Part shown: one piece after another, positions 1 through 54,864 of the stretch
How positions within the stretch are numbered: the first letter of the stretch is position 1
How the letters are laid out: the number at the start of each line of letters is the position of its first letter
Origin: a virus
Virus record (IMG/VR): IMGVR_UViG_3300025073_000036
Coordinates: 1 to 64,000 of that record
Reading direction: 5' to 3' (one strand)
Length of the DNA stretch: 64,000 nt
Notes under the pieces: model-generated
Database searches by the model: none
What the model was told of the DNA's origin: nothing
The model's input: the letters and a program-made list of their open reading frames with translations, nothing else
Program-made: the position numbers and the translations under genes

Positions 1-45
1 TTGCCCAAGGTGCCGCGGCGCAAGGATCACTGGGCGCTGGTCTAA
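1..45 (+). CDS. C-terminal end of an upstream gene, probably portal protein (partial)
   Basis: An open frame runs in from the left edge and stops at a TAA at 43-45, leaving 14 residues (LPKVPRRKDHWALV). Nothing in so short a tail identifies it. The gene order argues for the portal protein: the next genes are a large head-region protein, the prohead protease, a scaffold-like protein and the capsid, and the right edge of the window begins a small terminase-like gene. That identity is inference from position only. Confidence 0.4.
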   Translation: MPKVPRRKDHWALV

Positions 46-65
46 CCGTCATAGTCCTGACGGTT
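44..65 (+). terminator. Short hairpin after the upstream gene
   Basis: An 8-bp stem AACCGTCA / TGACGGTT with a 6-base loop overlaps the stop codon and is followed by TTTCC. The T tract is too short for a strong intrinsic terminator; it may be a weak terminator or an mRNA-stabilising hairpin before the 4.2-kb gene. Confidence 0.35.
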
Positions 66-125
66 TCCTGTGGGTCGGATTCAAACTGTACCAGTACCCT
101 CAAGGAAGAGCAGCGGTTCGGCGGT

Positions 126-3100
126 ATGTCCATCTACCGCACGAAGAACGGCCGCACGTTCGCCGCACCGACGGGCGCCAACGCGCACGAGATCGTCCAG
201 GCCTGGATGCGCGAGATGCTGCACGAGGCCATGCCGACCATGCCCGAAGAGATTGCCGAGAAACACGGCATCACCGACGAGGATGAGCGGGCCAACCCCG
301 TCACACCCGGCATGGAACGAGTGCTGGGCCGCGTGCTGCGGCAGGAGGCGACCCAGGCCGTGGTCGGCAACGTCCAGCGCCTCAACAACGAGGCGCTGGG
401 GGCCATGGCGCCGGCCAAGGGGTCGAGCGCGTGGAAGTCGCTGGCCGAGCGGGCCACGCAGCAGCAGGCCGAGATGACGGCCAGCCGGCAGGGGCGCGAC
501 ACGCGGGCGCAGCAGTACCTCAACGGCCTGGACAGCAAGGCCGAGAAGAGCTACGCGCTGGCCGCCGGCATCGCCATCATGCACGGCGGGCAGGTGACTT
601 TGCCCCGGGGAAAGGCCGGCCAGGCGGCCGCCGATCTGCCCAAGGACGTGAAGATGCGCCTGCGGCGCGAGATCGCGGCGGCCATGGGTCACACCGGCCA
701 GGGAGCGGCCCCGGTCGAGATCGCCGAGACGCGCACGGACGCACCGCAGCCGGCGAGCTTGCACGAGGCGGCCCGCACCGGCCTCGCGCCCCCCGTCGAG
801 GCCACGGTGGGCGCTCGTCAGGCCCAGGTGGCCGCGCAGGCCCCGGCGGCGCCGAAGCCGGACAAGGCAAAGGCAAACGATCACGAGAGCCGGGCACGCG
901 CCTACGAGCTCACCGGCGACAAAGAAGGCGCGGCACTGCACCGAGAGGCCGCAGCCGCTCATGAGAGCGGCGCGCCCGGAGCGCAGGACGCCAGCGACAA
1001 GGCGGAGGCCTGGCGCGGCGGTTGGAATGCCGGCGCCTCCGACGATCCGGCGCAACCTGGCGCGGGCGGCAAGCACGATGAGACGTGGCAGGCCGGGCAT
1101 GCCCACGGCGCGGCATTCAGCGCGGGCGGTAGCGCCAGCGGCAAGAATCCGCACCCGGCCGGATCGACCCTGGCGGGCGCGTGGAGCCGAGGAAGTCGGG
1201 AGGGCGCTGGCGACCGAGCAGCGGAACAGAGGGCCGCCGCTGCGCTGCCGTCCAGGCCGAAACTCGTACCCTCACCTGCGCCTGAGCCGAAGGCCAGTCA
1301 GGCGCAGGTGACGCCCCCGGAAGCCCCCGCAACGCCGCAAGCCGCAGAGGCGGCCGGCCAGGCGGCGGCGGGTGGTCAGGGGATCGCCCCAATCGCCCTC
1401 AAGGGCGGGCAGGTGGGGATCGGTCAGGCCACGATCAAGCAGGACCGCCACCCGACCACCGGGGAGGCCACGCACGTCGTCAACCTCGGTTACCGGCTGG
1501 GGTCCGATCACTTCTACGACGCGGCCGCCAAGGCCCGCGAGCTCGGCGGAAGCTACGTGCGTCGGGTCGGGTTCTCGTTCTCCGATCCGGGGAAAGCCCA
1601 CGACTTCGCGCAGCACTACGCCCGCCCGCCCGCCGGGGCAAATCAGACTGCACAGGCCACGCAGACGGCCGATGCGGCGGCCCGCAAGGCCGCCGGGGTG
1701 GCTCCGCGCGCCAGCAACCTTCACCCCAGCTCGGCCGTGAGTGAGATCCAGCTCAAGGCGCACGGGGAGGCCACCGAGGCCATCAACGCCTACGCTGCCG
1801 CCGTGGACGCCGGGGCCAGCCCGAAAGAGCTGGCGGCGAAGCGAGCGGCGGCCATGCGCCGCATCGACGCGCACGCGGCGACGGACAAGCGGCAGGGCTA
1901 CAGCGGCAAGGCCACCATCCAGCAGCACGGGGCCGCGTTGCTCCGCCAGGTCGAGGGCGTCGATGGCCACGCGCACGACAAAGGCGCGGCCGCAAAGCCG
2001 GGTGCCGATCCAGAGGCGTTCGCGCGCCACATGGAGAGCATCAAAGGCGACCAGCACATGGGGGCCGATTTCAAGAACGCGGTCGACAAGGCCCTGTCCG
2101 GGCACGCTTGGCAGGTTCCGGGCGGCCAGCGGGCGGCCACGGGCGAGGTCAGCCTCGAGCAGGCCGTGCGGGCGGCGCACGACCTGCATGGCGACCCGGG
2201 CCGGCTCTCCGGCCCTGTGCATCGCGCGGCCTACGCCCTCGGCCTGCCCGTCGCACCGCGCCAAGGGTCCGAAGCGGACGTGCCGCACGCTGCCCTGCAG
2301 GCCGCCTTGCAGAAGGTCAACGACCCGAAGGCCTACACGGCGAGCTACGAAAAGGAAAAGTGGCAGGGCGAGATGAAGCGCCGGCAGAGCGTCGCCAAGG
2401 CGCTCGGTGTGCCTGTCGAGAAGGTCGGGCCGCAGATCGGCACCGACGTGACGAGCCTGAGCACCGGACTCGACGCGATCCGGGCGCGCCTGCACGACCA
2501 CAAAACCCGCGACTCGGCCAAGTCTGAGCTCGCGTGGCGGCAGGGACTCGCCGACGCCGCCGGCCACAAGGTCGATCTCTCGACGCTCGGCGAGGGCGGC
2601 AAGAAAGACGCCGCCTGGTCGGGCGAGCAGGTCGTCAACGGCAAGGGCGAGCGGTACGTGCGCCGGGGCGACAGGTGGCACAAGGTCGAGGCCAACGGCG
2701 CCGTGGCCGACTGGGGCCAGCATCGCAACGAGATCGAGGGGGGCCAGACGTGGAAGGGGCAGTCGGTATCGACCGCCGACTTGCACAACGCGACCGCGAA
2801 CGAGGTGGCGCGTTCCCCCAACGCCAAGGCCGATCTCATGGCCGCGCTGCGGGGCCATGCCGGCCACGCTTTCGGGCGGCCCATCGAGTCGAAGGGCGGC
2901 GGGGCGCTGCCGTTCGATCATGTCGTCCAGGCGATGAACATGGTGGAAGGCCGGCGCGGCCGGAAGGAAGAACCGACGCCCTGGCACGAGTACATGAGCG
3001 ACGATCAGCTCAAGGCCGTGCACGCCATGCCCGGCGTCGCCGGTGTGATCTCGGCAGGGGTGCAGAACGAGATGGAGGCGCGCGAGCACGTCGGCCTGGG

Positions 3101-4283
3101 CGCCGCCGTGCAGAGCACGCCCGCCGAGGTCGAGCTCAAGAACGCCGCCGGCACCAAGGTCAAGACCGCGAAGGCCGAGACCGCGCATGGCCTGGCCGTC
3201 CACAAAACGCTCGACGACAAGGGCTGGATCGTCACGCACCACGGCAGCGGTCAGGCCGTGACCGACCCGACAAAGACGAAGGGCGAGGCCATGCAGGCCT
3301 TGGCTCTCTTCCGCAAGCACTACGGGGCCGATCTGCCGGCGAACGCGGCAAAGGTGGACCACGCGAAGGGGGTGGCCGCCCAGGAGATCGTCAACCGCCA
3401 CATCCATTCCGGCATCGCCGCCCGCTCGGTGGCCCTGACCGGAGGCGAGCGCACCGCCAGCGCCTCGCACGTCCAGGCCAACGACGCGCTGCGGAGGATG
3501 GCGACCGAAGAGGTCCCGCGCGCCAAGGCGCCCGGGAAGGAAGAGCCGAAGGCCCTGACGCCGGAACAGGCCCGAAAGCGGCTCGGCACGTTCGCCAGCA
3601 AGGAAGAGAGCCGACCGAACCTCAACGGCTACTACGTGGGCGCTGGCGCCGATCACGGGGTCGCCACGGACGGACACCGCCTCGCCACGATCCCCGTGGC
3701 CGGGCACGACGTTCAGAACGAGGGGGCCAAGGAAGGGGCGATCTACCGGCACCAGCACCCCAAGGGCCACGAGGCCGCGCGCGAGAAATACGCCGCGCAA
3801 CAGCTCGCGTCCGGCACATCGCCCGAGGCGGTCGAGAAGTGGAAGGCCGGCTGGGATCGCGACACCGGCGCTGGCTCCAAGGTCGACGCGGCCTTCCCCG
3901 ACTACACCCAGGTCGTGCGCAAGCGCGGGACGCAGGCCGAGGACCACATCGACCCGAAGCGGCTGCGGGACGTGCTCACCCACGCGAGCACCCTTTCGTC
4001 CACACGAACGCACGGGGTCATCCTGTCGCGCGAAGGCGGCAAGGTGTACGTCGGGGTCGGCGGTCCGGGGAACGACGTTGCCCCGGAGCACATCCGGGTG
4101 CAGGTCGGTCACACCGACCACCCGGACGGCAAGCTCGCGGTGCACTCCGGCTATCTCGGCGAGGCCGCCAAGGGGGCCAAGGACACCTTGGCCGTCGGCT
4201 GGGACAGTGACGAGCCGCTGGCGCCCATGAGCCTGCACCGCACGGACGGTGAGCACCACACCATCATGCCCCTGCGCATGTGA
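126..4283 (+). CDS. Large polyvalent-type head-region protein with C-terminal DnaN (sliding clamp)-like domain
   Basis: This 1385-residue protein lies between the probable portal and the prohead protease, where phages often place proteins packaged in or attached to the head. The N-terminal half is low-complexity, rich in Ala, Gly, Gln and charged residues, with no domain I can name; several basic Gly/His segments resemble large polyvalent proteins that travel with injected DNA. The last 250 residues are different. They carry three marks of bacterial beta clamps in the right order: ATDGHRLA near residue 1180, AFPDYTQVV near 1257, and an extreme C-terminus of MPLRM preceded by a YL.EA.KG..DTLAVGW segment (E. 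coli DnaN ends MPMRL). This suggests clamp domains II and III. The family link is recognised by motif, and the ejection role is inference. ATG start; a weak GGCGG lies just upstream and AAGGAAGAG is farther away. Confidence 0.6.
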   Translation: MSIYRTKNGRTFAAPTGANAHEIVQAWMREMLHEAMPTMPEEIAEKHGITDEDERANPVTPGMERVLGRVLRQEATQAVVGNVQRLNNEALGAMAPAKGSSAWKSLAERATQQQAEMTASRQGRDTRAQQYLNGLDSKAEKSYALAAGIAIMHGGQVTLPRGKAGQAAADLPKDVKMRLRREIAAAMGHTGQGAAPVEIAETRTDAPQPASLHEAARTGLAPPVEATVGARQAQVAAQAPAAPKPDKAKANDHESRARAYELTGDKEGAALHREAAAAHESGAPGAQDASDKAEAWRGGWNAGASDDPAQPGAGGKHDETWQAGHAHGAAFSAGGSASGKNPHPAGSTLAGAWSRGSREGAGDRAAEQRAAAALPSRPKLVPSPAPEPKASQAQVTPPEAPATPQAAEAAGQAAAGGQGIAPIALKGGQVGIGQATIKQDRHPTTGEATHVVNLGYRLGSDHFYDAAAKARELGGSYVRRVGFSFSDPGKAHDFAQHYARPPAGANQTAQATQTADAAARKAAGVAPRASNLHPSSAVSEIQLKAHGEATEAINAYAAAVDAGASPKELAAKRAAAMRRIDAHAATDKRQGYSGKATIQQHGAALLRQVEGVDGHAHDKGAAAKPGADPEAFARHMESIKGDQHMGADFKNAVDKALSGHAWQVPGGQRAATGEVSLEQAVRAAHDLHGDPGRLSGPVHRAAYALGLPVAPRQGSEADVPHAALQAALQKVNDPKAYTASYEKEKWQGEMKRRQSVAKALGVPVEKVGPQIGTDVTSLSTGLDAIRARLHDHKTRDSAKSELAWRQGLADAAGHKVDLSTLGEGGKKDAAWSGEQVVNGKGERYVRRGDRWHKVEANGAVADWGQHRNEIEGGQTWKGQSVSTADLHNATANEVARSPNAKADLMAALRGHAGHAFGRPIESKGGGALPFDHVVQAMNMVEGRRGRKEEPTPWHEYMSDDQLKAVHAMPGVAGVISAGVQNEMEAREHVGLGAAVQSTPAEVELKNAAGTKVKTAKAETAHGLAVHKTLDDKGWIVTHHGSGQAVTDPTKTKGEAMQALALFRKHYGADLPANAAKVDHAKGVAAQEIVNRHIHSGIAARSVALTGGERTASASHVQANDALRRMATEEVPRAKAPGKEEPKALTPEQARKRLGTFASKEESRPNLNGYYVGAGADHGVATDGHRLATIPVAGHDVQNEGAKEGAIYRHQHPKGHEAAREKYAAQQLASGTSPEAVEKWKAGWDRDTGAGSKVDAAFPDYTQVVRKRGTQAEDHIDPKRLRDVLTHASTLSSTRTHGVILSREGGKVYVGVGGPGNDVAPEHIRVQVGHTDHPDGKLAVHSGYLGEAAKGAKDTLAVGWDSDEPLAPMSLHRTDGEHHTIMPLRM

Positions 4284-4307
4284 CCGGCCTGTGAGAAGCT
4301 GCGTCAG

Positions 4308-4574
4308 GTGAGCGACACGCCGGCCATCCGCTGCCCGCACTGCGGCGCGCACTTCTCGCACGCCGTCGAGGGCAAGGTGAAGCTGCGGGTGCGGCTCATC
4401 GCCTTCGGTCCGGACGGGCGCGGTGAGGTCCACTGCTCGAGCTGCGGGCGGGACGTGCCGTTGCCGGTGACGCTTGGCGAGAGCCACCGGCCGAAGACAC
4501 CACCGCCCCGAGCGCGGTCCCAGGTGCGGTTCGTCCTGCCGAAGGGCTTGACAGCGCGCCCGGGCACCTCATAG
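4308..4574 (+). CDS. Small zinc-ribbon protein
   Basis: This 88-residue protein has two Cys pairs, CPHC near residue 9 and CSSC near residue 45, spaced as in a treble-clef or zinc-ribbon fold. The size and arrangement recall the Com-type zinc-finger regulators of Mu-like phages, but the sequence does not prove this. It starts at GTG 24 bases after the clamp-domain gene. The last part of its coding sequence contains a TTGACA promoter box whose -10 overlaps the stop codon, so the gene end doubles as the start of the next transcription unit. Confidence 0.6.
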   Translation: MSDTPAIRCPHCGAHFSHAVEGKVKLRVRLIAFGPDGRGEVHCSSCGRDVPLPVTLGESHRPKTPPPRARSQVRFVLPKGLTARPGTS

Positions 4575-4685: not shown

Positions 4686-5603
4686 GTGTTTCGAGGGGGA
4701 GCAATCAACAGCGCGAGGACAGCGGCCGCCGAGGGCGGCTGCGCGGTCCTGCACGCCTGGATGCCCTTCGAGGCCTTCGAGAAGGCCGGGGCGTCGGCCG
4801 CCAAACGCCTGCGCATCCGGGGCGTGATCAGCACCGAGCACCGCGACCGCCACGGCGAGCTGGTCAAGCAGGACGGCCTCGACTTCGGGCCGATCCTGGC
4901 CGGGTACGGCTGGCTCAACGACGGCCACGACTCGCGCAGCGGCGCCGAGCTCGGCATCCCCGAGCGCATCTACCGGGTGACCGTGCCCGGCCCGGACGGC
5001 AAGCCGATCAAGGCGACGGCGATGGAGGGCTACCTGCTCGACACGCCGCGCGGGCGGGCCATTTGGGAGAACAGCAAAGCCCTGCGCGGGACCGGCCGCT
5101 CGCTCGGCTTTTCGGTCGAGGGCGGGGTGCTCGAGCGGGCCTGTGGCTGCAGCGCGCGCAACCCGGGGGCGATGTGCCTCAATCCCACGGCGCACAAAGA
5201 CGTGGAGCGCGCGCTCGTCAAGCAGATCGCCATCACCCGCGTGCCCGTCAACCCGCACACCACGCTCGAGCCGCTGGCGAAGAGCCTGGACGCCACCATG
5301 CGCGCGGTGTGGGCCAAGGCCATGAGCGTCGGCTACCCTACGCAGGTGCCCGGCATGGGCGCGCCTGGCGCGCTCGGCCCCACGGTGCCGCAGGGCTGGA
5401 CTCGGCCGACGGTGCAGGTATTCGACGGCGTCCCGTTCGATTGGGAGGCCTTCAACCAAACCGGTTCGTCCCGGGCAGCCGTTCAGTCGGCGCGAGGGGG
5501 ACGCACTCTGACCAAGGGCGAGGCGGAGGCGTTCATCCGCGCCCGGCTCCCCAACGCCTCGACTGCGCAGGTGCGGGCGCTGCTCGACCGCGCGGCGATC
5601 TGA
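4686..5603 (+). CDS. Prohead protease (HK97/T4 gp21-type serine protease)
   Basis: Caudoviral prohead protease, which cleaves scaffold and capsid N-termini during head maturation. The core RIRGVISTEHRDRHGE...DFGPIL leads to GWLNDGHD with the probable catalytic His (about residue 81), and RSLGFSVEGG carries the probable nucleophilic Ser (about residue 143). The 317-codon open frame begins inside the upstream terminator, so the true start is uncertain: GTG at 4686 follows a GGGGGG ribosome-binding stretch and gives 305 residues, whereas ATG at 4761 would give 280. Neighbours are the scaffold-like and capsid genes, as expected. A C-terminal extension after about residue 200 may be an oligomerisation or scaffold-binding tail. 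Confidence 0.85.
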   Translation: MFRGGAINSARTAAAEGGCAVLHAWMPFEAFEKAGASAAKRLRIRGVISTEHRDRHGELVKQDGLDFGPILAGYGWLNDGHDSRSGAELGIPERIYRVTVPGPDGKPIKATAMEGYLLDTPRGRAIWENSKALRGTGRSLGFSVEGGVLERACGCSARNPGAMCLNPTAHKDVERALVKQIAITRVPVNPHTTLEPLAKSLDATMRAVWAKAMSVGYPTQVPGMGAPGALGPTVPQGWTRPTVQVFDGVPFDWEAFNQTGSSRAAVQSARGGRTLTKGEAEAFIRARLPNASTAQVRALLDRAAI

Positions 5604-5621: not shown

Positions 5622-6428
5622 ATGCGCAACTGCCACAAGATGCTGCTCGCCAAGGCCAAAGGGGGCGACAAGCACGCCTTCGCCTGCCTCAAGTCGATGG
5701 CCGACGACGACGACGACGACGGCGCCCGCGAGGCCCTGAGCGAGCTCGACCCGGAAAACGACGGCAACGGGGCCGATCCGGACGACGACCTCGACAAGGC
5801 CGAGCAGGGCAACCTCTTCGACCTCGACGCCCTCGACGGTGAGCTGCGTCAGCTCGAGCCGTTCGCCAAGGGCGAAGGCGCGCCCGACATGCCCTCCGGG
5901 GCCGACCTGCTCGGCGGCCAGCCGGAGATTCAGGCGGCGGCCGCGATGGACGCGGGCGATTTCGTCAAGGCCATGGTCGACGCCAACGTGCAGGCCATCG
6001 ACCGCCTGGGCGACGGCGTGCTGTGGAACGCTTCGGCCGTCGAGGCCTTGGCCAAGGGCCAGATCGCCCAGGGCGAGCTCATCCACAAGTTCGTGGGCCT
6101 GCTCGGCGAGATGCAGGCGGGCCTCGACACGCTGAACAAGGCCCTGAGCTCGCGTGGAGCCGGGCCGGTGGGCGCGCAGACGCCGCAGCAGCTCGCGGCC
6201 CTCCAGGCGCAGCGCCGGGCGGCCGTCCAGGGCGCCGGTGGCGGCGCGGGCGGCGCGCCGCAGCGCCAGGCGGGCAAGCCGTCCGAGCTCAACGACCTGC
6301 AGAAGTCGTTGCGGACCATGCGCGCGACGGAGACCAACGAAGACGTGCTCGGCCGGATCAACGACGCCCTCGAGGACCTGACCATCGGGAACCTCGAGCG
6401 CGCCCGGTCGCTGGTGCGAAGCAAGTAA
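5622..6428 (+). CDS. Scaffold-like protein preceding the capsid gene
   Basis: This 268-residue protein lies between prohead protease and major capsid, the usual scaffold position. It is strongly acidic near the N-terminus (an Asp run at residues 28-33 and an Asp/Glu-rich stretch to residue 75), has Gln/Ala-rich helical regions typical of scaffolds, and ends with a helical, charged segment (DVLGRINDALEDLTIGNLERARSLVRSK) that could bind capsid. A good ribosome site (AGGAAGGGA) precedes the ATG. The assignment rests on position and composition; no conserved motif proves it. It could also be a capsid-associated minor protein. Confidence 0.55.
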   Translation: MRNCHKMLLAKAKGGDKHAFACLKSMADDDDDDGAREALSELDPENDGNGADPDDDLDKAEQGNLFDLDALDGELRQLEPFAKGEGAPDMPSGADLLGGQPEIQAAAAMDAGDFVKAMVDANVQAIDRLGDGVLWNASAVEALAKGQIAQGELIHKFVGLLGEMQAGLDTLNKALSSRGAGPVGAQTPQQLAALQAQRRAAVQGAGGGAGGAPQRQAGKPSELNDLQKSLRTMRATETNEDVLGRINDALEDLTIGNLERARSLVRSK

Positions 6429-6504: not shown

Positions 6505-8016
6505 ATGAACGACGTGGCGCTCCCCAGCGACATTTTCGGCGGCGCGGCCGAGGTCTCGGCCGGCGACGTGGCCAGCGCGCTCGGCTTCGGCGGGGTCAAC
6601 GACCTGCTCAAGGCCATGACGGTCGGCGACCAGTTCCCGGCCACCATCGGCGAGCTCTCGCCGGGCGCCATGATGGCGACGGTGCCGCAGGATCTCGACG
6701 ACGTGCTGCACAACGCCAGCTTCGGCGACCGGCAGATCGTGCTTCAGAAGATGCTGAAGACCGACAAGGTCTGGTCGACGGTCCACCAGTACGTCCGCAA
6801 GCACTCGCCCGGCTCGGCCGGCCGGCGCTTCATGTTCCACCGCGAGGGCGGGCTGCCGGTCGAATCCGACTCGACCTACAGCCTCGAGTCGCTGGCGATG
6901 AAGTACCTCGGTGCCGTGCGCCGCCTGCCCATCCAGGCCCGCCTGGTGAAGTCGGTGGCCGGCGACGCGGTCAAGAACCAGAACAAGGACGGCGCGCTCG
7001 AGATCCTGGCCTCGCTCGAGTGGCACCTGTTCTACGGCAACAGCGCCACCAACCCGCTCGCCTTCGACGGGATCAAGACGATCATGAAGCGCGAGGGCAT
7101 CCTGCTGGACGCCCGCGCTGCCACGCCGAGCGAGAGCCTGCTCGACGAGGCCATGAGCAAGGTGTGCGAGCGCCCCAACTGGGGCTACCCCACGCACCTG
7201 ATGTCCAGCTCGGCCGTCAACCGCACCCTGCGGCAGACCTACGCCGGCCGCATCCGGGCCATGATGGGCGACAAGTTCCACCCGAACTACCAGCTCAAGG
7301 GCATGGTGTACGACCACTGCGCCGACGGCGACGAGGTCAAGATCATCAAGCACCCGCTGGTGATCGAGGAATCCGGCCTGCCCGACGAGCGCGGCGCCGG
7401 CCCGGACCCGTCCAGCCGTCCGGTCGAACCGCTCATCGTGGTGCAGCCGGCCAGCGGCGCGGCCGGGGCGAACCGCTCCGATTTCGTCGCCAACGACGCC
7501 GGGGCCTACTACTACCGGATCGTGGCCCTGAACGGCGGTGGCATGTCCAAGCCGGTCACGACCAACGCGGTCAACGCGGTGGCCGGCCAGGTCATCAGCA
7601 TCACGATCCGCGACGGCGCGGTCCCGGGCAGCAAGCAGGCCGCCACGGCCTTCATGATCTACCGCACCGAGAAGGGCGGCGCGGCCACGACCGCGAAGTA
7701 CATCACCGAGGTGGCGGTGGCGGCCAACAACGCCGACACCGTTTTCATCGACGGCAACGGAGATCTGCCGGGCTGCTCCGACATCTTCATCCTGTCGAAC
7801 GACAGCGAAGCCATCGAGATCAAGCAACTCCTGCCGTTCTTCAACTTCCCCCTCGGGAACATGGACACGTCCTACCGCTGGGCGCTGCTCCTGTTCCTGG
7901 CCCTCAAGATCGCGCTGCCCCGCAAGCACTGCGTCATCAAGAACGTGAAGCCCGACGCGCAGCTCATCCAGCTCGTCGGTTCGGGCGATCAGAGCGGCCC
8001 GCAGCAGCACGTCTGA
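6505..8016 (+). CDS. Major capsid protein with inserted beta domain
   Basis: This 503-residue protein directly follows protease and scaffold-like genes. The N-terminal two thirds has the layout of the large SPO1/Twort-like and related capsids (VPQDLDDVLHNASFGDRQIVLQKML, then YVRKHSPGSAGRRFMFHREGG). The C-terminal part returns to capsid-like sequence (FFNFPLGNMDTSYRWALLLFLALKIALPRKHCVIKNV). Between about residues 310 and 425 there is a separate beta-rich segment with fibronectin-III-like strands (AYYYRIVALNGGG...KPVTT...AFMIYRTEKGG...TVFIDGN), likely displayed on the capsid surface. Hairpins flank the gene on both sides. The fold is inferred, and the capsid role is strong from order and size. 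Confidence 0.85.
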   Translation: MNDVALPSDIFGGAAEVSAGDVASALGFGGVNDLLKAMTVGDQFPATIGELSPGAMMATVPQDLDDVLHNASFGDRQIVLQKMLKTDKVWSTVHQYVRKHSPGSAGRRFMFHREGGLPVESDSTYSLESLAMKYLGAVRRLPIQARLVKSVAGDAVKNQNKDGALEILASLEWHLFYGNSATNPLAFDGIKTIMKREGILLDARAATPSESLLDEAMSKVCERPNWGYPTHLMSSSAVNRTLRQTYAGRIRAMMGDKFHPNYQLKGMVYDHCADGDEVKIIKHPLVIEESGLPDERGAGPDPSSRPVEPLIVVQPASGAAGANRSDFVANDAGAYYYRIVALNGGGMSKPVTTNAVNAVAGQVISITIRDGAVPGSKQAATAFMIYRTEKGGAATTAKYITEVAVAANNADTVFIDGNGDLPGCSDIFILSNDSEAIEIKQLLPFFNFPLGNMDTSYRWALLLFLALKIALPRKHCVIKNVKPDAQLIQLVGSGDQSGPQQHV

Positions 8017-42662: not shown

Positions 42663-43348
42663 AGGCCGTGCTCGTGGCAGGTCGAGTCGTGGCAGGTGTC
42701 CGACACGTCGCCGCAGATGTCGCACCACTTCATTGTCCCGTGGCATTGCCCATCGCCCGGGCACGACTCGGCCAGGCGGGCGGCCTCGCGCTCTTCATCG
42801 GCACGGCGCACAACCTGCCGGTGCGAACGCAGGGCCGACTCAATGTTGAGCGCGAGCCAGGACTTGAGCGTGCCCGCAGGCCAGCCGTGCGCGACGCCGA
42901 AGGTCAGATCGGCCCGGGTCTTTCGGTCGGCGGCGGCGGCCAGACGCAGGACGATCCGGCCCTCGACGCTTGGCGTGCCGTCGGCCTCGGGCGGTGCAAG
43001 CTGAAACGGCTCGGCCAACGACCCCAGGATCTCGGCCGTCTCCTGCTCGCCGATCTCATCGGCGTGGGGCGCCTCGACTCCGCACGGACGAACGTCGGAA
43101 TGGGCGAGCTCCATCGTCTGCCACAACCGGCGGGCCACCTCGTCGGCCTTCACCCAGGCGGCATGCAACAGCGGCAAGGCCGGCACCATGATCGACCGGT
43201 CGCTGCGTTCGACGATCCGGCGGGCCTCGTCTTCGGTGTAGAGCCCGGCTGCGGCCACCTCGTCGGTGTAGCCGGACGACTCCGGCCGCCAGTAGCGGCC
43301 CCGGCCCGATTGGTGTTCGGGCAGAACTTCCACGAGAAAGCGCGACAT
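42659..43348 (-). CDS. Protein with C-terminal Cys/His cluster, unknown function
   Basis: This 229-residue protein starts at ATG 43348 (GTG 43351 is the alternative), overlapping the SbcC stop. The middle is helical, and the C-terminus holds a dense zinc-binding cluster (CPGDGQCHGTMKWCDICGDVSDTC, then HDSTCHEH). It may be a DNA- or RNA-binding accessory to the SbcCD complex, suggested only by position. Confidence 0.55.
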   Translation of the reverse strand: MSRFLVEVLPEHQSGRGRYWRPESSGYTDEVAAAGLYTEDEARRIVERSDRSIMVPALPLLHAAWVKADEVARRLWQTMELAHSDVRPCGVEAPHADEIGEQETAEILGSLAEPFQLAPPEADGTPSVEGRIVLRLAAAADRKTRADLTFGVAHGWPAGTLKSWLALNIESALRSHRQVVRRADEEREAARLAESCPGDGQCHGTMKWCDICGDVSDTCHDSTCHEHGL

Positions 43349-46269
43349 CACATGACCTCGAGCGTGGAGCCGTTGACGCCCGGCCGGACTTCGACCCGGT
43401 GCGGCAGGCAGTCGGCCACAGCGTCGATGTGCGTGACCACGAGCACGAGCGGGTAGAGCCGCTGCAGGCCGGTGACGGTGTCCTTGAGCGCGTCGATGCC
43501 GCTCACGTCCAGGGCGCCGAATCCACCTTCATCGATCAGCAGCCATTCGACGGGCACACCTTCACGGTCGGCCAGCAGCCGGGCCAAGCCGAGGCGGAGG
43601 GCGATGTCGATGCGGAATTGCTCGCCGCCCGAGAAGTCCTCGTATTCACGCTCCCCCACGTCGTCGGTGACCACGAAGCGCATGACCTCGCGCTGCCCGC
43701 CGTCGTCGGTCGTGGCCTGGGTCTCGATCCGCAGGCGCATGCCGCGCGTGGAGATCGCCCCGAGCACCCGGTTGGCCTCCAGCTCGAGCACCGGGATCGC
43801 TTTCTCGATCACGAGCGTGGGGGCCAGCGCGCAGGCCTCGGCCGTGCGGTCGAGCTGCCGCGCGGTCTCGGCGTACATGGCGGCCGTCTCCAGCTCGCCC
43901 CGGGCCTGCTCGGCACGGCGGGCCACGTCCTCGAGCACGGCCTCGGCCCTGGCGTGCAGCCGCTCGGCCTCGGTGACCGACTTCTCGGCCGCCTCGCGCG
44001 CCTGGCGGGCCTCGCTGGCGGCCGTCTCGGCCACCATGGCGTTCATGGCCTGCTCGTCCGTGCTGCTGGCGCGCTCGACCTCGGCGGCGCGCTCGGCGCG
44101 CTCGGTGTCCAGCCGGGCGATCTGCCGCTCGATGTCACTGCGCTGGGAGACGGCCAGCTCGGCCGCAGCGCGCTTCCCCGCCGTGGTCTCGCAGCTCGTC
44201 ACGGCCGCGCGGGCGGCGGTCACGGCCGCTTCGGCGGCGGCCACGTTGGGCACGCCGAGCTCGTCGATCTTGCCGCGCACGCTGGCACCCTCGCGGGCGA
44301 GGCGCGCCACCTCGTCGGCCTCGGTGCGGGCACGCTCGGCGGCGCCGCGTTTGGCGTCCACCGTGGCCGAGTCGCGCTCGGCCTGGGCCAGCGCGGTACG
44401 GGCGTTGTCGAGCGCGGTGCGCGCCACGCTCTCGGCGTGCGCGGCGGTGCGCCGGGCGGCGGCGGCGGCGGCCTGCCGCTCGCGCAGCGCGTTGCGAGCG
44501 TTCCCCAGCGCCCGACCGGCGTCGGCGTCCAGTCGGTCGGCCGCGTCGTAGGCCTCGGTCGCCTGTCGGACGGCGGCCTGGGCCGCCTCGTGGGCCGCCT
44601 CGGCCTCGGCCAGCTTCTCGCGCGCTGCGGGCAACCCGTCGCGCGCGGCCACCGCGTCGGCGATGAGGGGGCAGGTGCCGGCCAGGTCACACGACACCTG
44701 CCCGATCATCGGGTCCGTTGACATCCACTGAGGGTGCCGGGCGCACGGCGCCTGGGTCAGTCGAGCGGCCGCTTGGGTCAGCCGCTCGGCGTTGCTCGTC
44801 GCCGTGGCGAGCGCGATGTGCGTTGCGTTGCGGGCGTTGCCGGCCTGGATCTGCGCCTGCTGCGCTTCGGTCAGGGCGGCCCGGGTGGTCGTGGCCGTCG
44901 TCTCGTCCACCTGCTCGGCGCGCGCCGCGTCGTCCGCCACCTCGGCCGTGCGCATCGCCGCGCTGGCGGTGTCGAGCGCGCCCTTGGCCTCGTCCACCTT
45001 GACCCGCAGGCCTTCGATCTGCCCGGCCGCCGCTTCGGCCTGGGTCAGCCCGGCCGCTTCGGCGTCGGCGGCCTTCTGGCGGCCGCTGGCGGCCGTGTAG
45101 AGCTCGACGAGGCGCTTGCGCTCGACCACGAGCGCGTCGAGCTTCCCCTGCGCCTCGCGCACCTGCACAAGGGCCGCCTCGGCCTCGGCCAGCCGCTCAC
45201 GCACGCCGGGCAGATCGGTCTCGGCCTTCGCTGCCGCGTCCAGCTCCGCCGCCGGCCCGGCCAGCTCGTTGAAGCGGGCACGCGCGGCGGTGATCTCGCC
45301 GTCCAGGGCGGAGATCCGCCGCCGTGCCTCGTCCACGTTGCGGGCGGCCGCCTGCGCCGCTTCGAGGGCCTGCTGCGCCGCCGTGTGCGCCGCGTGTGCG
45401 CTCGCCTCGGTGGTCTTGGCGCACGCGAGGCGCACACGGGAGGCCTCGACCACGCCGGAGGCCTCCTGGGCCAGCAGAGCGAAGACCTCCGCCATGCGCG
45501 GCGCCTCGACCGCTCCGCCCGTGTTCTTCAACGTGAAGTAGATCACGTTCCACGCGCCTTCATCGTCGTACCGGGCGAGCTCGTGGCCGTCGGGCGCGCA
45601 GGCCAGGACCGGGCGGTCGACGGGCAGCATGGCCCGCAGGCCGGCCGCGATGGTCGCCGCCCGGGCGTTGGCCTCGTCCCGCTTGGCCGTGGCGTCCCGG
45701 GCGCCGGCCCGGGCGCGGTCGAGCCAGACGCGCCAGCGGCCGAGATCGAGCGAGCGACGCAGGATGTCGCGCCGCTCTTCCGGCTTCGCCCGGGTGAGCC
45801 GGTTGGCGTCGTTCTGCATCATCACCGACGCCGCGAGCAGGGTGTCGTACTCGATGCCCAGGATGCGGCGGATCTCCGCCTGCGTCTCGCGCGCGCCCTT
45901 GCCGCTCATCGGCTCCCAGTGCTCGTCGTGCACGCCGTCGACCGGGCTCGTCTCCAGCACCCATCGGTACAGGTCGAGCTCGCTCTTGGTGCCCGATCCG
46001 CGCACGCTGATCTTGCGCACGATCTTGTAGGTCTCGCCGGTGCTGCTGAACTCCAGCTCGCCCACGCAGTCGGTGGCGCCCTTGCGCACCACGCCGGTGA
46101 TGCGGCTCGACCGGCTCTCGCCGAACGGCACCCACACGATTCCCTCCGCGAGCGAGCTTTTGCCCGCCCCGTTGGGGCCAGTGATCACCGCGCCCGGCAT
46201 GGTCGTGAAGTCGAGATCCACGTCCGCCCAGGCGCGGTAGTTCCGCAACCGAAACCGCTTCAAACGCAT
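43348..46269 (-). CDS. sbcC: SbcC/Rad50-like nuclease ATPase subunit (phage gp46-like)
   Basis: This 973-residue SMC-type ATPase pairs with the SbcD-like nuclease encoded upstream at 48714-50123. The Walker A GPNGAGKSS is at residues 31-39, the ABC signature FSGGEQFRIDIALRLG from about 879, Walker B WLLIDEGG near 910 and the H-loop VVTHID near 945. Long Ala/Glu-rich coiled coils fill the centre. The hook region around 505-535 has CARHP and CDLAGTCP instead of the usual CPxC, so the zinc hook is degenerate. The complex makes 3' ends for recombination. ATG 46269, first gene after promoter 46348-46375. Confidence 0.85.
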   Translation of the reverse strand: MRLKRFRLRNYRAWADVDLDFTTMPGAVITGPNGAGKSSLAEGIVWVPFGESRSSRITGVVRKGATDCVGELEFSSTGETYKIVRKISVRGSGTKSELDLYRWVLETSPVDGVHDEHWEPMSGKGARETQAEIRRILGIEYDTLLAASVMMQNDANRLTRAKPEERRDILRRSLDLGRWRVWLDRARAGARDATAKRDEANARAATIAAGLRAMLPVDRPVLACAPDGHELARYDDEGAWNVIYFTLKNTGGAVEAPRMAEVFALLAQEASGVVEASRVRLACAKTTEASAHAAHTAAQQALEAAQAAARNVDEARRRISALDGEITAARARFNELAGPAAELDAAAKAETDLPGVRERLAEAEAALVQVREAQGKLDALVVERKRLVELYTAASGRQKAADAEAAGLTQAEAAAGQIEGLRVKVDEAKGALDTASAAMRTAEVADDAARAEQVDETTATTTRAALTEAQQAQIQAGNARNATHIALATATSNAERLTQAAARLTQAPCARHPQWMSTDPMIGQVSCDLAGTCPLIADAVAARDGLPAAREKLAEAEAAHEAAQAAVRQATEAYDAADRLDADAGRALGNARNALRERQAAAAAARRTAAHAESVARTALDNARTALAQAERDSATVDAKRGAAERARTEADEVARLAREGASVRGKIDELGVPNVAAAEAAVTAARAAVTSCETTAGKRAAAELAVSQRSDIERQIARLDTERAERAAEVERASSTDEQAMNAMVAETAASEARQAREAAEKSVTEAERLHARAEAVLEDVARRAEQARGELETAAMYAETARQLDRTAEACALAPTLVIEKAIPVLELEANRVLGAISTRGMRLRIETQATTDDGGQREVMRFVVTDDVGEREYEDFSGGEQFRIDIALRLGLARLLADREGVPVEWLLIDEGGFGALDVSGIDALKDTVTGLQRLYPLVLVVTHIDAVADCLPHRVEVRPGVNGSTLEVM

Positions 46270-46294
46270 GTTGGTCCCCCGACCATGAAGTTGT

Positions 46295-46311
46295 GCGCCG
46301 CCGGGCGGCGC
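46295..46311 (-). other. Hairpin in the SbcC leader
   Basis: GCGCCGC / GCGGCGC with a 3-base loop forms a perfect 7-bp stem in the untranslated leader between the promoter at 46348-46375 and the SbcC start. There is no T tract, so it may act as RNA stabiliser or attenuator. A second, weaker 4-bp stem at 46273-46284 holds the GGGGG ribosome site in its loop. Confidence 0.4.
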
Positions 46312-46347
46312 CCGCCTGTAGGGCACCGGACAAGCGGCAGGTGCGAG

Positions 46348-46375
46348 CATTTAGCGCGACGCGCTAAGAAGTCAA
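46348..46375 (-). promoter_or_regulatory. Leftward SbcC-operon promoter with perfect-dyad operator
   Basis: On the minus strand TTGACT (46370-46375) is followed at 16-17 bp by TAAATG/AAATGC. The spacer contains the 17-bp palindrome at 46351-46367, with arms TTAGCGCG and CGCGCTAA around one central base. It belongs to the operator group at 35510-35526, 51763-51779 and 51796-51812. Transcription would start about 70 bases before the SbcC ATG. Confidence 0.55.
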
Positions 46376-46390
46376 CAGGAAAGCGCGCGG

Positions 46391-46837
46391 TCAGTCGGAC
46401 CGCGACGACTCGGCGGTGAGCTCGTGAATGGACACGGTGCGCTCCGAGTGGCCGATGCACTCGTTGTCGTAGGTCTGGACGGACGCGGCCACCCGAATCA
46501 GGCCGCGCGCGAAGTCGATGCCGGACCGTGTCGGACGGTAATTGCCGCGCCCTTCGCGCTCGATCAGCCCCCAGTGCACGAGGAAGGCCAGATCGGTCGA
46601 GGCCTTGGTGGCCTTGGCGCTGCCCTGGACAAAGTCGCGCACCTGGCACCACTGGCCCGGCCGCAGCTCGTGAAGGTCCACGAGCCGCACGAGGTTGATC
46701 GCGATCTCACGGTGCAACTTGCGGGTGTAGATCTGCGTGGTGCGCTGGCAGCAGGGGCAGGTCACGGGCTTGCCACCCTCGAGGGCGACGAAGTGTTCGT
46801 GCGAGGCCTCGGCCAGGGTGCGCGGGGAGCTGGACAT
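46391..46837 (-). CDS. Zinc/winged-helix-like protein
   Basis: This 148-residue protein has a CPCC pair near residue 27 and a domain with winged-helix character from about 75 to 120 (ATKASTDLAFLVHWGLIEREGRGNYRPTRSG, a helix-turn-helix plus wing). It may bind DNA and regulate the early operon. AGGTAACC before the ATG is the ribosome site. Function is not assigned. Confidence 0.55.
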   Translation of the reverse strand: MSSSPRTLAEASHEHFVALEGGKPVTCPCCQRTTQIYTRKLHREIAINLVRLVDLHELRPGQWCQVRDFVQGSAKATKASTDLAFLVHWGLIEREGRGNYRPTRSGIDFARGLIRVAASVQTYDNECIGHSERTVSIHELTAESSRSD

Positions 46838-46840
46838 GGG

Positions 46841-47020
46841 TTACCTCCGGCCTCGCAGGATCTCGCGCACGATGGTCCTGGCGTAGGCCTGATTTTCGCG
46901 GCGCAGGCGCCGGACGGTGGCGGTCAGACACATCAGGTCGAGCCGGTGCTCGAAACACCGCCAGGAGAGCCACACGAGGCCCGCAGCGAGCAGGCCGTGC
47001 ATCACCTCGGCAAGGTTCAC
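46841..47020 (-). CDS. Small single-span membrane protein
   Basis: This 59-residue protein starts at GTG 47020, overlapping the previous stop by 4 bases. A hydrophobic segment (VMHGLLAAGLVWLSWRCF, about 6-23) is followed by a positively charged C-terminus (RRLRRENQAYARTIVREILRGRR), so the tail probably faces the cytoplasm. It could alter the host membrane or tether another protein. Confidence 0.5.
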   Translation of the reverse strand: MNLAEVMHGLLAAGLVWLSWRCFEHRLDLMCLTATVRRLRRENQAYARTIVREILRGRR

Positions 47021-47778
47021 AGATCGTCCGTGTCCAGGCCGGCCGCGTCGGCCAGGTGCTCGACCACGAGGGCCAGATCGGTCGAGTCCACCTCGACCGT
47101 GGGATCGTTGCGGCGCGAGGCACGCAACAGGCGCAGCAGGGCCTCGTGCGTGTCGTCGTCGAGCCGGACGGTGCGTGGGGGCTCGACGGTCACGACCGGA
47201 AGCGGCGCGGTGGTCGGGCGTCGGTCGGGCCGGGCGTCGGCGTAGACGCGGTCGAAGGCCTCGCGGTTGACCGGATCGCCGCCGACCAGCAGCGCAGGGG
47301 GGTAGTGGGCCTCGATGCAGCCGGCGGGGTCGAGGCCGACGAACGCACCGCAGGTGCACCGCAACTTCATGCCCGGCGGGCCGTGGACAACCCGTATCGG
47401 TGCGCCGGAGGCCGGGCAACGTGCTGAATCGCTCCGGGCGGCCGGCGGGCGAGGGGGGCTTCCCGCCGGCCGCCCGTGGGCGAATCCGATCTGTACGAGC
47501 AAGGCCGCCGCTTCGGTGAAGCGGCCGACGTAGGCCGTGTGCGCCCAGCTCCCGAGCGCGCCGCTGTACGTCCACCCCAGGGCCGTCAGGCCGCGCGCGT
47601 GATCCACGCTGCCCGTCCAGTAGTGCAGGCGGTTGCAGGCCGGGCACGGCCGGGCGTCGCAGGGCGGATCGCCGACGTTGTGGCACATGCCGTTGCACTT
47701 CCCCACGTCGCCCAGGAAGAGCACGTCGCAGCCGGAGCACTGCCACAGGTTGCGCACGGTCAGGTCAGGCAGGGCCAT
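47017..47778 (-). CDS. Cys-rich zinc-binding protein, unknown function
   Basis: This 253-residue protein carries a dense N-terminal zinc cluster (CSGCDVLFLGDVGKCNGMC, CDARPCPACNRLHYW) and a second set near 130-145 (RCTCGAFVGLDPAGC). The C-terminus is helical (DTHEALLRLLRASRRN, DLALVVEHLADAAG). Several zinc knuckles in one protein point to nucleic-acid or protein binding. No family is recognised. It overlaps the membrane protein's start. Confidence 0.55.
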   Translation of the reverse strand: MALPDLTVRNLWQCSGCDVLFLGDVGKCNGMCHNVGDPPCDARPCPACNRLHYWTGSVDHARGLTALGWTYSGALGSWAHTAYVGRFTEAAALLVQIGFAHGRPAGSPPRPPAARSDSARCPASGAPIRVVHGPPGMKLRCTCGAFVGLDPAGCIEAHYPPALLVGGDPVNREAFDRVYADARPDRRPTTAPLPVVTVEPPRTVRLDDDTHEALLRLLRASRRNDPTVEVDSTDLALVVEHLADAAGLDTDDL

Positions 47779-48535
47779 CGGGCACCTCCGCCGGGGCCAC
47801 GCGCACGCCGAAGGCGACGATGTCGGCCTCGTCGAGCATCACAGCGATCCCGGTGAACTCACACTGCCACGGGACCGCCCGGGCCGCGCAGGCCCGCACG
47901 AAGGCCTCGGCGTCGGCCAGCTCGCCCCCGTTCTCGCCCTCGTTCTCGTCGCTGCCGAAATCCTCGCTGAAACGCTCGGCCCACCAGTCGAGCAGGTCAC
48001 GAGCTGCGCGCCGGATGTAGTCGTCGTCGATGTCGCGCCGTTCGTAGACGTGGAGCGCGACCGGGCCGGAGACCACGGGGCCGTGCACGTCCTCGAGCGC
48101 GGCCTGTGGGTCATCCCACATGCGTTCGGCATCGTGCGGGCCATACAGCGGCTCCCAGCCCTGCGCGAGGGCCTGGAAGTCGCGCCAGGCCACCGTGCGG
48201 GTGGGCGCCTTGAAGCCGCTGCCACGACAGATCGGGCAGACCTCGTCCTTGTCGTCCGGGCACGGCGTCCAGCAGCAACCGTTCTTGCGCTCCGCCGTCT
48301 CCTGGCGGCCCCAGTCCTTCGGCTCGCCGTGGACCCAGGCGAACTCGTTTGGCTTCACACCCAGCCGGCCACCTGGCGTCAAAACCGACACCGCGCCGTA
48401 GTGATTCATGTAGGCCAGGTGCTCGGCCGGCTCGGCCACCGCAGTCGGCTTGTCCGGGTTCACCAAGCTGGCCAGAAAGGGGAAGTCGGCGGTCACGCGC
48501 TTGACAAGCCTCACGGTGGGGTTGTTGCGCTTCAT
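47765..48535 (-). CDS. Protein with CxxCxGxG motif, unknown function
   Basis: This 256-residue protein starts at ATG 48535, overlapping the previous stop (ATGA). It has CCWTPCPDDKDEVCPICRGSGF at about 88-108, with a DnaJ-type CPICRGSG. Acidic stretches (SEDFGSDENEGENGGELADAEAF) occur near the C-terminus. It may be an accessory protein of the early operon; function is not recognised. Confidence 0.55.
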   Translation of the reverse strand: MKRNNPTVRLVKRVTADFPFLASLVNPDKPTAVAEPAEHLAYMNHYGAVSVLTPGGRLGVKPNEFAWVHGEPKDWGRQETAERKNGCCWTPCPDDKDEVCPICRGSGFKAPTRTVAWRDFQALAQGWEPLYGPHDAERMWDDPQAALEDVHGPVVSGPVALHVYERRDIDDDYIRRAARDLLDWWAERFSEDFGSDENEGENGGELADAEAFVRACAARAVPWQCEFTGIAVMLDEADIVAFGVRVAPAEVPDGPA

Positions 48536-48717
48536 CCCTCGCAACCCATCTGGTAGTGACCGCCGCAGGTGGGCGAGCAGAAGGTCAGTTTACGTCTGCG
48601 GACGTACTTCTTTCGCTTTACCTCGTCGAAGGCCAGGTCGGTGATCGTCGTCGTGTGTGGCGTGGCGATGAGCGCGCCGCACTGCGGACACTTGGCGGGC
48701 TGGTTGAGGGCGCTCAC
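48532..48717 (-). CDS. Tiny zinc-ribbon protein
   Basis: This 61-residue protein starts at GTG 48717 and overlaps the preceding stop (GTGA). It has CPQCGALIATPH and CSPTCGGHYQ separated by 36 residues, a four-Cys zinc ribbon. A basic segment (DEVKRKKYVRRRKL) suggests nucleic-acid binding. The small size and operon place it as an accessory of SbcD. Confidence 0.6.
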   Translation of the reverse strand: MSALNQPAKCPQCGALIATPHTTTITDLAFDEVKRKKYVRRRKLTFCSPTCGGHYQMGCEG

Positions 48718-50123: not shown

Positions 50124-50244
50124 GGTGTTCCCCTTGTCGAAGTTGGTGCCGGTCTCTCCCCGGCAGTCACGCATGGTTGAGCGGCCGCGTTCCCTGGATC
50201 GCCCTCGGCCTCGCGGCGTCACCGGGCGATGCGTGTCCCGTCGC

Positions 50245-51870: not shown

Positions 51871-52845
51871 GTGCACGGTCGCTGGGCGGCTACGCCGCTG
51901 CTCTTCTCCACATTGCGAATCGAGGCCTATCCCGACGGCACGCCGTTCAAGGGCCTGCACAAGATCGTCTTGGCGGTGCTGCTCGAGCGGTGTGACGCCG
52001 CAGACGGCAAGGACGGCCGTGGGCGGGTGCGCAACCGCGCCCTGGCCGAGGCCTCGACCGCCGCCGCCCTGGCCGAGGCGCACGCCCGTGGCGGCTCGCT
52101 CGTGAGCGTTGTCGAGCTGGCCCGGCAGGCCGTCGTGGCCGAGAAGGTGGCGCGCGAAGCGGTGCAAGCCTTCAAGGGCGCCGGGTGGGTTCAGGCGTTC
52201 GGACGGCCCGGGCGCCGTGACCTGCTCGTGGTGAACGACTCCGCCCTGCTGGCCGCCGATCCGCGTCTAGGGGTGGCAGATTTGCCAGGGGTGGCAGATT
52301 TGCCAGGGGTGGCAAAAGAGGAAGGCCCGGCAGATCTGCCACCACACCCCTTGCAGATCTGCCACCCCACCCCTGCCGTATTTGCCACCCCCCTCAACGA
52401 TCATGACGCGCGCGCGGCTGTCCCTACCCGGCCCTATCCGACCCTAAACGCACCCCCAGTGGCCCCCGGGCCTGATGAGGCGGAGGTCGCCAGGAAGGCG
52501 GCCGCCTTCCGGCGCTTGTCGGCCGCCTGGGGGGACGGATTCGGGCGGGCTCGACGTGGCCGGGGCGTGATGGAAGTGAACGGTGCCGAGACGGAGACGT
52601 TGCGGCGCCTTGTTGATGCGTATGCCGAGGCGGAAGTTGCGGAGGCGATTCGCCGGGAGATTCTTCGGGCTGCGAATGATCCGCGCGGCCCGCGTCTGGA
52701 CTGGGTCGAGGACGCCTTGCGGGGCGCCCGGCCGAACACCAACCCGCCCGGAGCGGCCAGGCCACCAGCCAGGACCCGCGCGGGCGCCGTTCCCGGGGCG
52801 TCGAAATGGGCGCGTCCGGATGCACGAGGGGAGAAGCCAGGATGA
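51871..52845 (+). CDS. Replication initiator (lambda O/DnaD-like) containing internal iterons
   Basis: This 324-residue protein is the first gene of the rightward replication operon. Residues 1-130 form an HTH/winged-helix domain (FKGLHKIVLAVLLERCDAADGKDGRGRVRNRALAEAS, VVAEKVAREAVQAFKGAGWVQAF) as in initiators that bind the origin. A short linker follows (residues 132-178) that is encoded by five to six iteron-like repeats. The C-terminal part (AEVARKAAAFRRLSAAWG..., DAYAEAEVAEAIRREIL) is a DnaB/DnaC-interaction-type helical region. GTG 51871 was chosen for its GGGGGA ribosome site. It is followed by a DnaC-like loader, as in lambda O and P. Confidence 0.65.
   Translation: MHGRWAATPLLFSTLRIEAYPDGTPFKGLHKIVLAVLLERCDAADGKDGRGRVRNRALAEASTAAALAEAHARGGSLVSVVELARQAVVAEKVAREAVQAFKGAGWVQAFGRPGRRDLLVVNDSALLAADPRLGVADLPGVADLPGVAKEEGPADLPPHPLQICHPTPAVFATPLNDHDARAAVPTRPYPTLNAPPVAPGPDEAEVARKAAAFRRLSAAWGDGFGRARRGRGVMEVNGAETETLRRLVDAYAEAEVAEAIRREILRAANDPRGPRLDWVEDALRGARPNTNPPGAARPPARTRAGAVPGASKWARPDARGEKPG
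52270..52393. repeat. Iteron cluster inside the initiator gene, candidate replication origin
   Basis: Two exact tandem 18-bp units GGGGTGGCAGATTTGCCA (52270-52287 and 52288-52305) and a partial GGGGTGGCA (52306-52314) are followed by palindromic copies GGCAGATCTGCCA (from 52329), GCAGATCTGCCACCCC (from 52353) and TGCCGTATTTGCCACCCC (from 52374). The core TGGCA-N4-TGCCA occurs five times plus one half. Iterons in an initiator gene mark the origin in lambda and related phages. Confidence 0.65.
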
Positions 52846-53735: not shown

Positions 53736-54370
53736 TGGGCCTCAACCGAGAGCAGGCCCGCAAGCTCCTGGGTCGGGACCTGCCCGAACCTGAGCTACCG
53801 CCGCAGCTCGCGGCCGTGTTCGGTCAGAAACCCGGGCAGCCGAAGGCCGTGGCCGTCGTGCACACGGTCGGTCAGGCCGGCCCGGTCGAGCGCGTGCGGC
53901 CCCACTGGGAAAAAGACGGCGAGGCCAAGAAGCCGAAGGCCACGAAACGAAAGCTCGAATGGGCCGAGCAGGTGAACCTCGTGAGCGCCCTGATCGCGGC
54001 CGAGCTGATGTTCTCCGGCTCGCTCAACGGCGTGCCGCTGCCGCCCGGTCAGGCCAAGATGGCGAAGGCGGCGGGCATGGTGCGCGGGGACGCGGACCTC
54101 ACGATCTGGACGCACCCGCCCGCCCACCCGGACGCGCCGGGCATGATGGTCGAGCTAAAGTTGCCGTCGGCGGAGCCCTCGACCGAGCGCGCCGGCCAGT
54201 TCTCCGGCGCCCGCCCGCACCAGAAAGACCGGCTCGGCCAGTTTCAGGCCCTCGGCTGGCACGTCGTCATCGGCTACGGCTGCGCGGACGCGCTGTGCAA
54301 GATCCGCGCAGCCGGCTACGACCTGAGCATGCTGCCCGCGTGCTCGTTCGTGAAGACGGGGCAGCCGTGA
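53735..54370 (+). CDS. VRR-NUC nuclease
   Basis: This 211-residue protein has the VRR-NUC core: RKLEWAEQVNLVSALIAAEL, then MVRGDADLTIW with the metal-binding Asp (about 121), MMVELKLPS with Glu-Leu-Lys (139-142), and DRLGQFQALGWHVVIGYGCADAL with Gln 171 and the conserved G..V. It would cut branched or flap DNA during replication or repair. The N-terminal 70 residues are disordered and basic. It overlaps the loader gene by one base. Confidence 0.8.
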   Translation: MGLNREQARKLLGRDLPEPELPPQLAAVFGQKPGQPKAVAVVHTVGQAGPVERVRPHWEKDGEAKKPKATKRKLEWAEQVNLVSALIAAELMFSGSLNGVPLPPGQAKMAKAAGMVRGDADLTIWTHPPAHPDAPGMMVELKLPSAEPSTERAGQFSGARPHQKDRLGQFQALGWHVVIGYGCADALCKIRAAGYDLSMLPACSFVKTGQP

Positions 54371-54864
54371 CGACGCCCACCGAGCCGCAGCTCGACCTTT
54401 TCGGCGGCCCCGCGCCGCGCTCGGCGCACACGCCCGCGCCGGCCGTGGCAGGGCGGGCCACGAGCGTCCTGAGCGGTCAGCAGATCCTCGACGCGATGCC
54501 GGAGCTGCGCCGCCAGGTGTTCGCCTTCATCCGCGTCCAGGGCGGCAGGGGGGCCACCGACGACGAGATGCAGGCGGCGATGGGTCTCAACCCCTCGACG
54601 CAGCGCCCGCGCCGCATTGAGCTCGAGCGGCAGGGTTTCATCCGCCAGGACCCGGAGGGCCGCACGCGCGAGACCCGCAGCGGCCGTCAGGCCGTGGTGT
54701 GGGTGATGGTGCCGGAGGCCGAGCGGCAGGGCCTCGGGGAGCGCCGCCAGGTCGAGACCGAGGTGCGCGGCGCACTGCATCACTTCATCGCTGCCCTCGA
54801 CCTCGAGCAGTGTCGAGCGGCCATCGGTGTCCTGCGTGCGCGTTTCCCGAGCGTTTCGACCTGA
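54367..54864 (+). CDS. Winged-helix protein with clamp-binding motif
   Basis: This 165-residue protein starts at GTG 54367. Residues 8-12 read QLDLF, the consensus peptide by which proteins bind the bacterial DnaN sliding clamp. Residues 45-110 form a winged helix (RRQVFAFIRVQGGRGATDDEMQAAMGLNPSTQRPRRIELERQGFI). The C-terminus is helical (ETEVRGALHHFIAALDLEQCRAAIGVLRARF). It may load or direct a DNA enzyme, for example the nuclease encoded just upstream, to the clamp. The motif is seen; the partner is inferred. Confidence 0.65.
   Translation: MTTPTEPQLDLFGGPAPRSAHTPAPAVAGRATSVLSGQQILDAMPELRRQVFAFIRVQGGRGATDDEMQAAMGLNPSTQRPRRIELERQGFIRQDPEGRTRETRSGRQAVVWVMVPEAERQGLGERRQVETEVRGALHHFIAALDLEQCRAAIGVLRARFPSVST

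Follow-up and report, generated by a model that had tools for sequence, protein, structure and literature searches.

Half of a β clamp, without the ring, at the C terminus of a giant head-cluster phage protein

A giant protein encoded in the head gene cluster of a contractile-tailed phage ends in half of a bacterial β clamp (DnaN). The window analyzed herein is a stretch of 64,000 nucleotides (positions 1–64,000 of the 94,886-bp IMG/VR record IMGVR_UViG_3300025073_000036), and the half-clamp comprises residues ∼1144 to 1385 (∼242 residues) of its gene product g001, which are homologous to clamp domains II and III. The half-clamp is not a whole clamp and probably can no longer assemble into the known two-subunit ring. 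We lean slightly toward the reading that it is a peptide-docking module on a head-packaged giant protein, which would tether clamp-binding proteins or compete for them. The features discussed are collected in Table 1.

That the C terminus of g001 is a true DnaN homolog with the clamp fold is practically certain. A phmmer search of the PDB with a 305-residue query matched β clamps only (best E 1.5e-6, query residues 72–305 aligned), and a two-sequence profile of this domain and its counterpart from a related phage (L010) reached an E value of 1.2e-11. PHROG 947, annotated as "DNA polymerase processivity factor," matches the half-clamp with E 1.8e-12 and TIGR00663 (dnaN) with E 1.2e-7, the latter below the equivalog cut-off and in an alignment covering domain III alone; the Pfam model of domain II stays sub-threshold. 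The first-pass annotation of this DNA had named three DnaN hallmarks in sequential order, and these are found exactly there: ATDGHRLA begins at residue 1180, FPDYTQVV at residue 1257, and MPLRM forms the extreme C terminus (residues 1381–1385). Its wider claim of a clamp domain II–III homolog fused to a large head-cluster protein is borne out by the PHROG, TIGR00663, and PDB matches. It had also suggested predicting the structure of residues 1100 to 1385 for comparison with DnaN; the AlphaFold model of this region (32-row alignment; pLDDT 79, pTM 0.77) has the clamp fold and aligns with residues 133 to 366 of E. coli β at a Z score of 18.5 and an rmsd of 3.5 Å over 205 residues. Chance occurrence of the motifs is ruled out by the predicted fold together with the E values. 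An antisense ORF (1272–4487) that overlaps g001 was rejected, being without homology support among neighbors that all lie on the plus strand. The remaining 1,140 residues of g001 matched no solved structure by sequence in the PDB, and outside the clamp domain no significant Pfam, NCBIfam, or PDB match was obtained, leaving the clamp as the only recognizable domain.

Each subunit of the bacterial β clamp consists of three domains, and two subunits encircle DNA as a head-to-tail dimer. Domain III of the half-clamp is complete, and the first half of domain II, which contributes to the pocket, is canonical. An HMM search of the entire 94,886-bp viral record for domain I (PF00712) gave no match. 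In a second model (residues 960–1385), the place of domain I is taken by low-confidence helices and a small strand–helix unit, and no clamp-like fold is seen in residues 960 to 1140, that is, in the ∼180 preceding residues, where model confidence is low. The remodeled second half of domain II carries a segment, GHDVQxEGxxEGAIYRHQxPKGHxxxREKYAA, that is strongly shared between g001 and its L010 counterpart and absent from ordinary clamps. Y153 and Y154 of E. coli β, which touch DNA and aid loading (PMC5042465), are replaced by P and N in the half-clamp, and the pore residue K198 by G. Most other known DNA contacts belong to the absent domain I, all of whose contacts are gone, and the acidic interface residues of domain III are largely not kept in either half-clamp copy. 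With domain I and most DNA-contact residues lost, the known two-subunit ring probably can no longer form. An earlier proposal that a clamp is delivered with the DNA is thus not supported as far as a ring is meant, with domain I absent, half of domain II remodeled, and the DNA-contact residues lost.

In the usual arrangement, the partner protein carries a motif that fits into the pocket of the clamp. Scoring used the pocket residues given in PMC11139829 and was limited to positions that are conserved across at least 75% of a set of 30 phage clamps. Of the 16 pocket positions, 13 are retained in the window copy and 14 in the L010 copy; of the 32 remaining positions, the two copies retain 16 and 18, respectively. 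Kept in both half-clamps are 13/16 pocket versus 15/32 other positions (Fisher p 0.023); ordinary phage clamps in the same alignment keep 22 to 32 of the 32 non-pocket positions. R246 and N320 of the pocket are altered in both copies and V360 in the window copy. The docking pocket thus appears to have been kept preferentially while the DNA-handling parts were lost, a contrast that is statistically modest and drawn from two related copies. Pocket residues rank with the best-conserved residues of all clamps, and their retention partly reflects ancestry.

Table 1. Features of the giant gene, its half-clamp, and genes referred to in the text (window coordinates; residue numbers with a letter refer to E. 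coli β)
Feature	Position	Strand	Basis or remark
IS1-like transposon right end; terminal inverted repeat GATTCAAACTGTACCAGTACC at 78–98	1..98	+	Repeat match
8-bp target duplication CTCAAGGA	99–106	+	After transposon right end
g001, 3′ portion (1385 codons) of giant head-cluster gene	126..4283	+	Single ORF with 5′ part in L010/L090
C-terminal half-clamp: DnaN domain II (first half canonical, second remodeled) and complete domain III	3555..4283	+	Homology, fold
FASKEESRPNLNG loop (E. coli β loop II region, 145–157)	3591..3629	+	Pocket R152, L155 kept; Y153-Y154 to P-N
ATDGHRLA	3663..3686	+	Pocket T172, G174, H175, R176, L177 all kept
Remodeled second half of domain II (residues ∼1190–1253)	3693..3884	+	Alignment; predicted helices in place of strands
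FPDYTQVV	3894..3917	+	Pocket P242, V247 kept; R246 to Q
C-terminal MPLRM	4266..4280	+	Pocket M362, P363, R365 kept; M364 to L
Head maturation protease g002	4761..5603	+	Annotation match
g003, head-region protein of unknown function	5622..6428	+	QGNLF at residue 62, weak clamp-binding-motif candidate
Major capsid protein g004	6505..8016	+	Annotation match
DnaC-like loader g052	52842–53735		Two genes upstream of g054
g054 (phrog_1123, function unknown)	54367..54864	+	Consensus clamp-binding motif QLDLF at residue 8

The first-pass annotation described a protein of 1385 residues. A clamp on a large protein is indeed present, but the 1385 residues are not a natural unit; they correspond to the 3′ portion of a larger gene that a transposon splits. 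The 5′ portion, g095, lies at 87,773 to 89,884 of the viral record, and a transposon of ∼4.1 kb, spanning record positions 89,824 to 93,970 plus window positions 1 to 106, separates it from g001; the record begins inside the transposon right end (nt 1–98). Its 21-bp inverted repeats are identical (GGTACTGGTACAGTTTGAATC at 89,824 and its complement at 78–98). Assignment to the IS1 family draws on the IS1-type transposase g097 (PF03400 just above cut-off), the terminal inverted repeats, the short target duplication, and an uninterrupted site in L090; the cargo gene g098 encodes an N6-DNA-methyltransferase (type I RM-like). In the related phage IMGVR_UViG_3300044996_000447 (L010/L090), the insertion site is uninterrupted, and g095 and g001 form a single ORF of ∼2,340 residues that ends in the corresponding half-clamp, about 54% identical to the window copy. 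This phage was recovered from a second sample as well (L091; two contigs identical over 16 kb). Its capsid protein is 94% identical to that of the window, and protease and capsid are 86 to 94% identical between the two phages. The arrangement of a half-clamp on a giant protein is accordingly found in two phages, L010/L090/L091 being the only relative among the matches listed. With the giant gene split by the transposon in the assembled genome, the protein may not be produced in that phage, or may not be needed. At record positions 93,971 to 94,886, the transposon right end is joined to another g001 version (residues 48–344, 78% amino acid identity), which reflects a chimeric assembly junction or else the insertion of the element a second time, in a related strain. 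A 99-bp exact repeat at both record ends suggests a circular map of ∼93.9 kb.

The gene order reads large terminase, g089, portal, MuF-like, g095/g001, protease, g003, SPO1-type capsid, tail sheath, and baseplate. Herein, g095/g001 is placed after the portal and MuF-like genes and before protease and capsid. Searches of the whole 94.9-kb record for Pol A, B, and C and for DnaB_C gave no match, extending the earlier remark that no polymerase gene is recognizable in the window, and no separate clamp gene was matched elsewhere in the phage genome. A DnaC-like loader is present while Pol A, B, C, and DnaB are unmatched, and the phage therefore probably relies on the host replisome. The QLDLF peptide previously pointed out in the gene at 54367 is real. 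A second giant protein, g089 (1892 residues; record 77,356–83,034), is encoded upstream of the portal and shares its N-terminal domain with g095 (56% identity to the g095 counterpart in L010 over this domain). The C-terminal domain of g089 matches phage proteins labeled primase; this label was set aside as evidence of a replication pair, as the C-terminal 532 residues gave no PDB or NCBIfam match. A DpdA-like protein (7-deazapurine DNA modification; record 75,285–76,241, minus strand) suggests modified phage DNA, and SbcC-like and SbcD-like genes form a single minus-strand cluster at window positions 43,348 to 50,174.

In the favored docking reading, the giant protein would be packaged in the head and enter the cell with the DNA. 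Packaging is probable, judging from the gene location and from the parallel with polyvalent proteins, which are proposed to travel in this manner (PMC5512222). The half-clamp pocket would then bind clamp-binding motifs of the QLxLF type, and docking of proteins that carry them is moderately probable on the strength of the retained pocket residues. Host targets might include Pol III α, the clamp-loader subunit δ, Hda, and repair polymerases, with the phage's own motif protein g054 as an alternative; the outcome may be tethering and recruitment of clamp-binding proteins, or competition and sequestration. By analogy, a monomeric half-clamp pocket could bind δ well: for a monomeric clamp variant, binding to δ is ∼50 times stronger than for the dimer (PMC11139829). 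A low copy number in the virion would argue against stoichiometric sequestration and favor tethering or action on scarce partners. That the ring-incompetent half-clamp acts as a virion-borne mimic, capturing or blocking replication proteins at infection from an injected giant protein, is put forward only tentatively and is rather doubtful. The suggestion that a clamp here works or competes with host enzymes accordingly holds as predicted peptide docking, the pocket being retained, and is not supported as a DNA-encircling clamp.

It is unlikely that a head protein has recruited the clamp fold for its surface or for assembly, with a pocket that binds a head partner such as g003 or nothing at all. 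The giant gene does adjoin protease and capsid, overall half-clamp identity outside the pocket is low, and QGNLF of g003 is identical in three phages; strong motifs, however, have an aliphatic residue in second position, which this peptide does not, and it sits in a generally conserved stretch of g003. A half-clamp that is about 54% identical between phages whose protease and capsid are 86 to 94% identical would moreover be odd for a close structural partner. The half-clamp also stands out from neighboring segments by its dN/dS (0.61 versus 0.19–0.29, from one sequence pair and by a simple method). Faster evolution fits a host-facing role and fits relaxed constraint as well. The latter would apply to a degraded captured clamp that is carried along without a current role in a gene tolerating insertion, and the transposon within the giant gene, the same transposon end joined to a g001 variant elsewhere, and the highest dN/dS among the tested segments are in its favor. 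Such decay is nonetheless quite improbable: the long frame is intact in both phages, dN/dS is still below 1, the pocket is retained, and both phages have the same strongly conserved new insert.

The clamp gp45 of phage T4 has activity in late transcription. A working, DNA-encircling ring that the half-clamp might form, for instance together with host DnaN or in an unusual oligomeric state, to serve processivity or late transcription is very improbable. The clamp domains are genuine, and no separate clamp was matched in the phage genome, which speaks for this possibility. It would have to function without domain I, for which the preceding ∼180 residues give no clamp-like fold in the low-confidence model, with Y153/Y154 replaced and half of domain II remodeled, with the acidic domain III interface residues largely gone in both copies, and alongside no recognizable phage polymerase.

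Compared with the bacterial β clamp (TIGR00663, phrog_947; E. coli β, Stenotrophomonas maltophilia 7rzm), the half-clamp shares the domain II–III fold, the pocket residues, the C-terminal MPxR tail, and the FPDY and ATDGHRL motifs. It differs by the missing domain I, the remodeled second half of domain II, the loss of the DNA-contact tyrosines, and the over 1,100 additional residues to which it is fused. Free-standing phage clamps (Aurantimonas phage AmM-1, Paracoccus and Rhizobium phages; IMG/VR L011–L089) have the same C-terminal domains, and those of AmM-1 and of the Paracoccus and Rhizobium phages are the nearest sequence relatives in annotated phages. Unlike the fused half-clamp, they are mostly separate genes of ∼350 to 450 residues among the matches listed, and the annotated ones are not located beside head genes within the stretches read. 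Polyvalent proteins (Iyer et al. 2017, PMC5512222) resemble g095/g001 as very large multi-part proteins whose genes lie among those of the virion, beside a MuF-like gene, with a replication-related domain at one end; in contrast to them, the giant protein has a single recognizable domain and no matched metallopeptidase domain. The text of that survey makes no mention of clamp, DnaN, or PCNA, and no head-cluster phage protein with a clamp domain turned up in the literature searched. The truncated clamp on a polyvalent-type giant protein is a variant of known clamp and polyvalent types, seen in two phages, and brings a replication-hub domain into the repertoire of polyvalent-type proteins. In this case, it is the pocket that the phage encodes, without the ring. 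A functional half-clamp would be a natural case in which the docking of partners is uncoupled from the encircling of DNA, and would provide a compact clamp-pocket module for binding experiments.

Phages with a distantly related capsid (24% identity) encode a MuF-type protein of 1094 residues in the corresponding region upstream of the protease. One of these (L097:2764–6048), upstream of protease and capsid, has polynucleotide kinase, NUDIX, RNA ligase, and MuF-type matches; this combination is the polyvalent pattern that PMC5512222 describes.

Viral contigs scanned with a single sequence, either the half-clamp domain or whole g001, gave no match, nor did whole g001 against phages or the half-clamp domain against plasmids, and a scan of genome contigs found no relative. 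A narrower peptide scan and the pattern EESRPNLNG matched only two contigs, both of one phage. A profile scan of viral contigs with the clamp domain yielded at least 80 loci, and more fused clamps may exist. The family phrog_3007, labeled RusA-like, is probably a mini-clamp family, and the label looks wrong; it was rejected as a sign of a resolvase, as the match covers clamp domain II itself. A free-standing phage protein of 241 residues (L054:3378–4103), which matches phrog_3007, comprises clamp domain II and the end of domain III, terminating in MPMRV.
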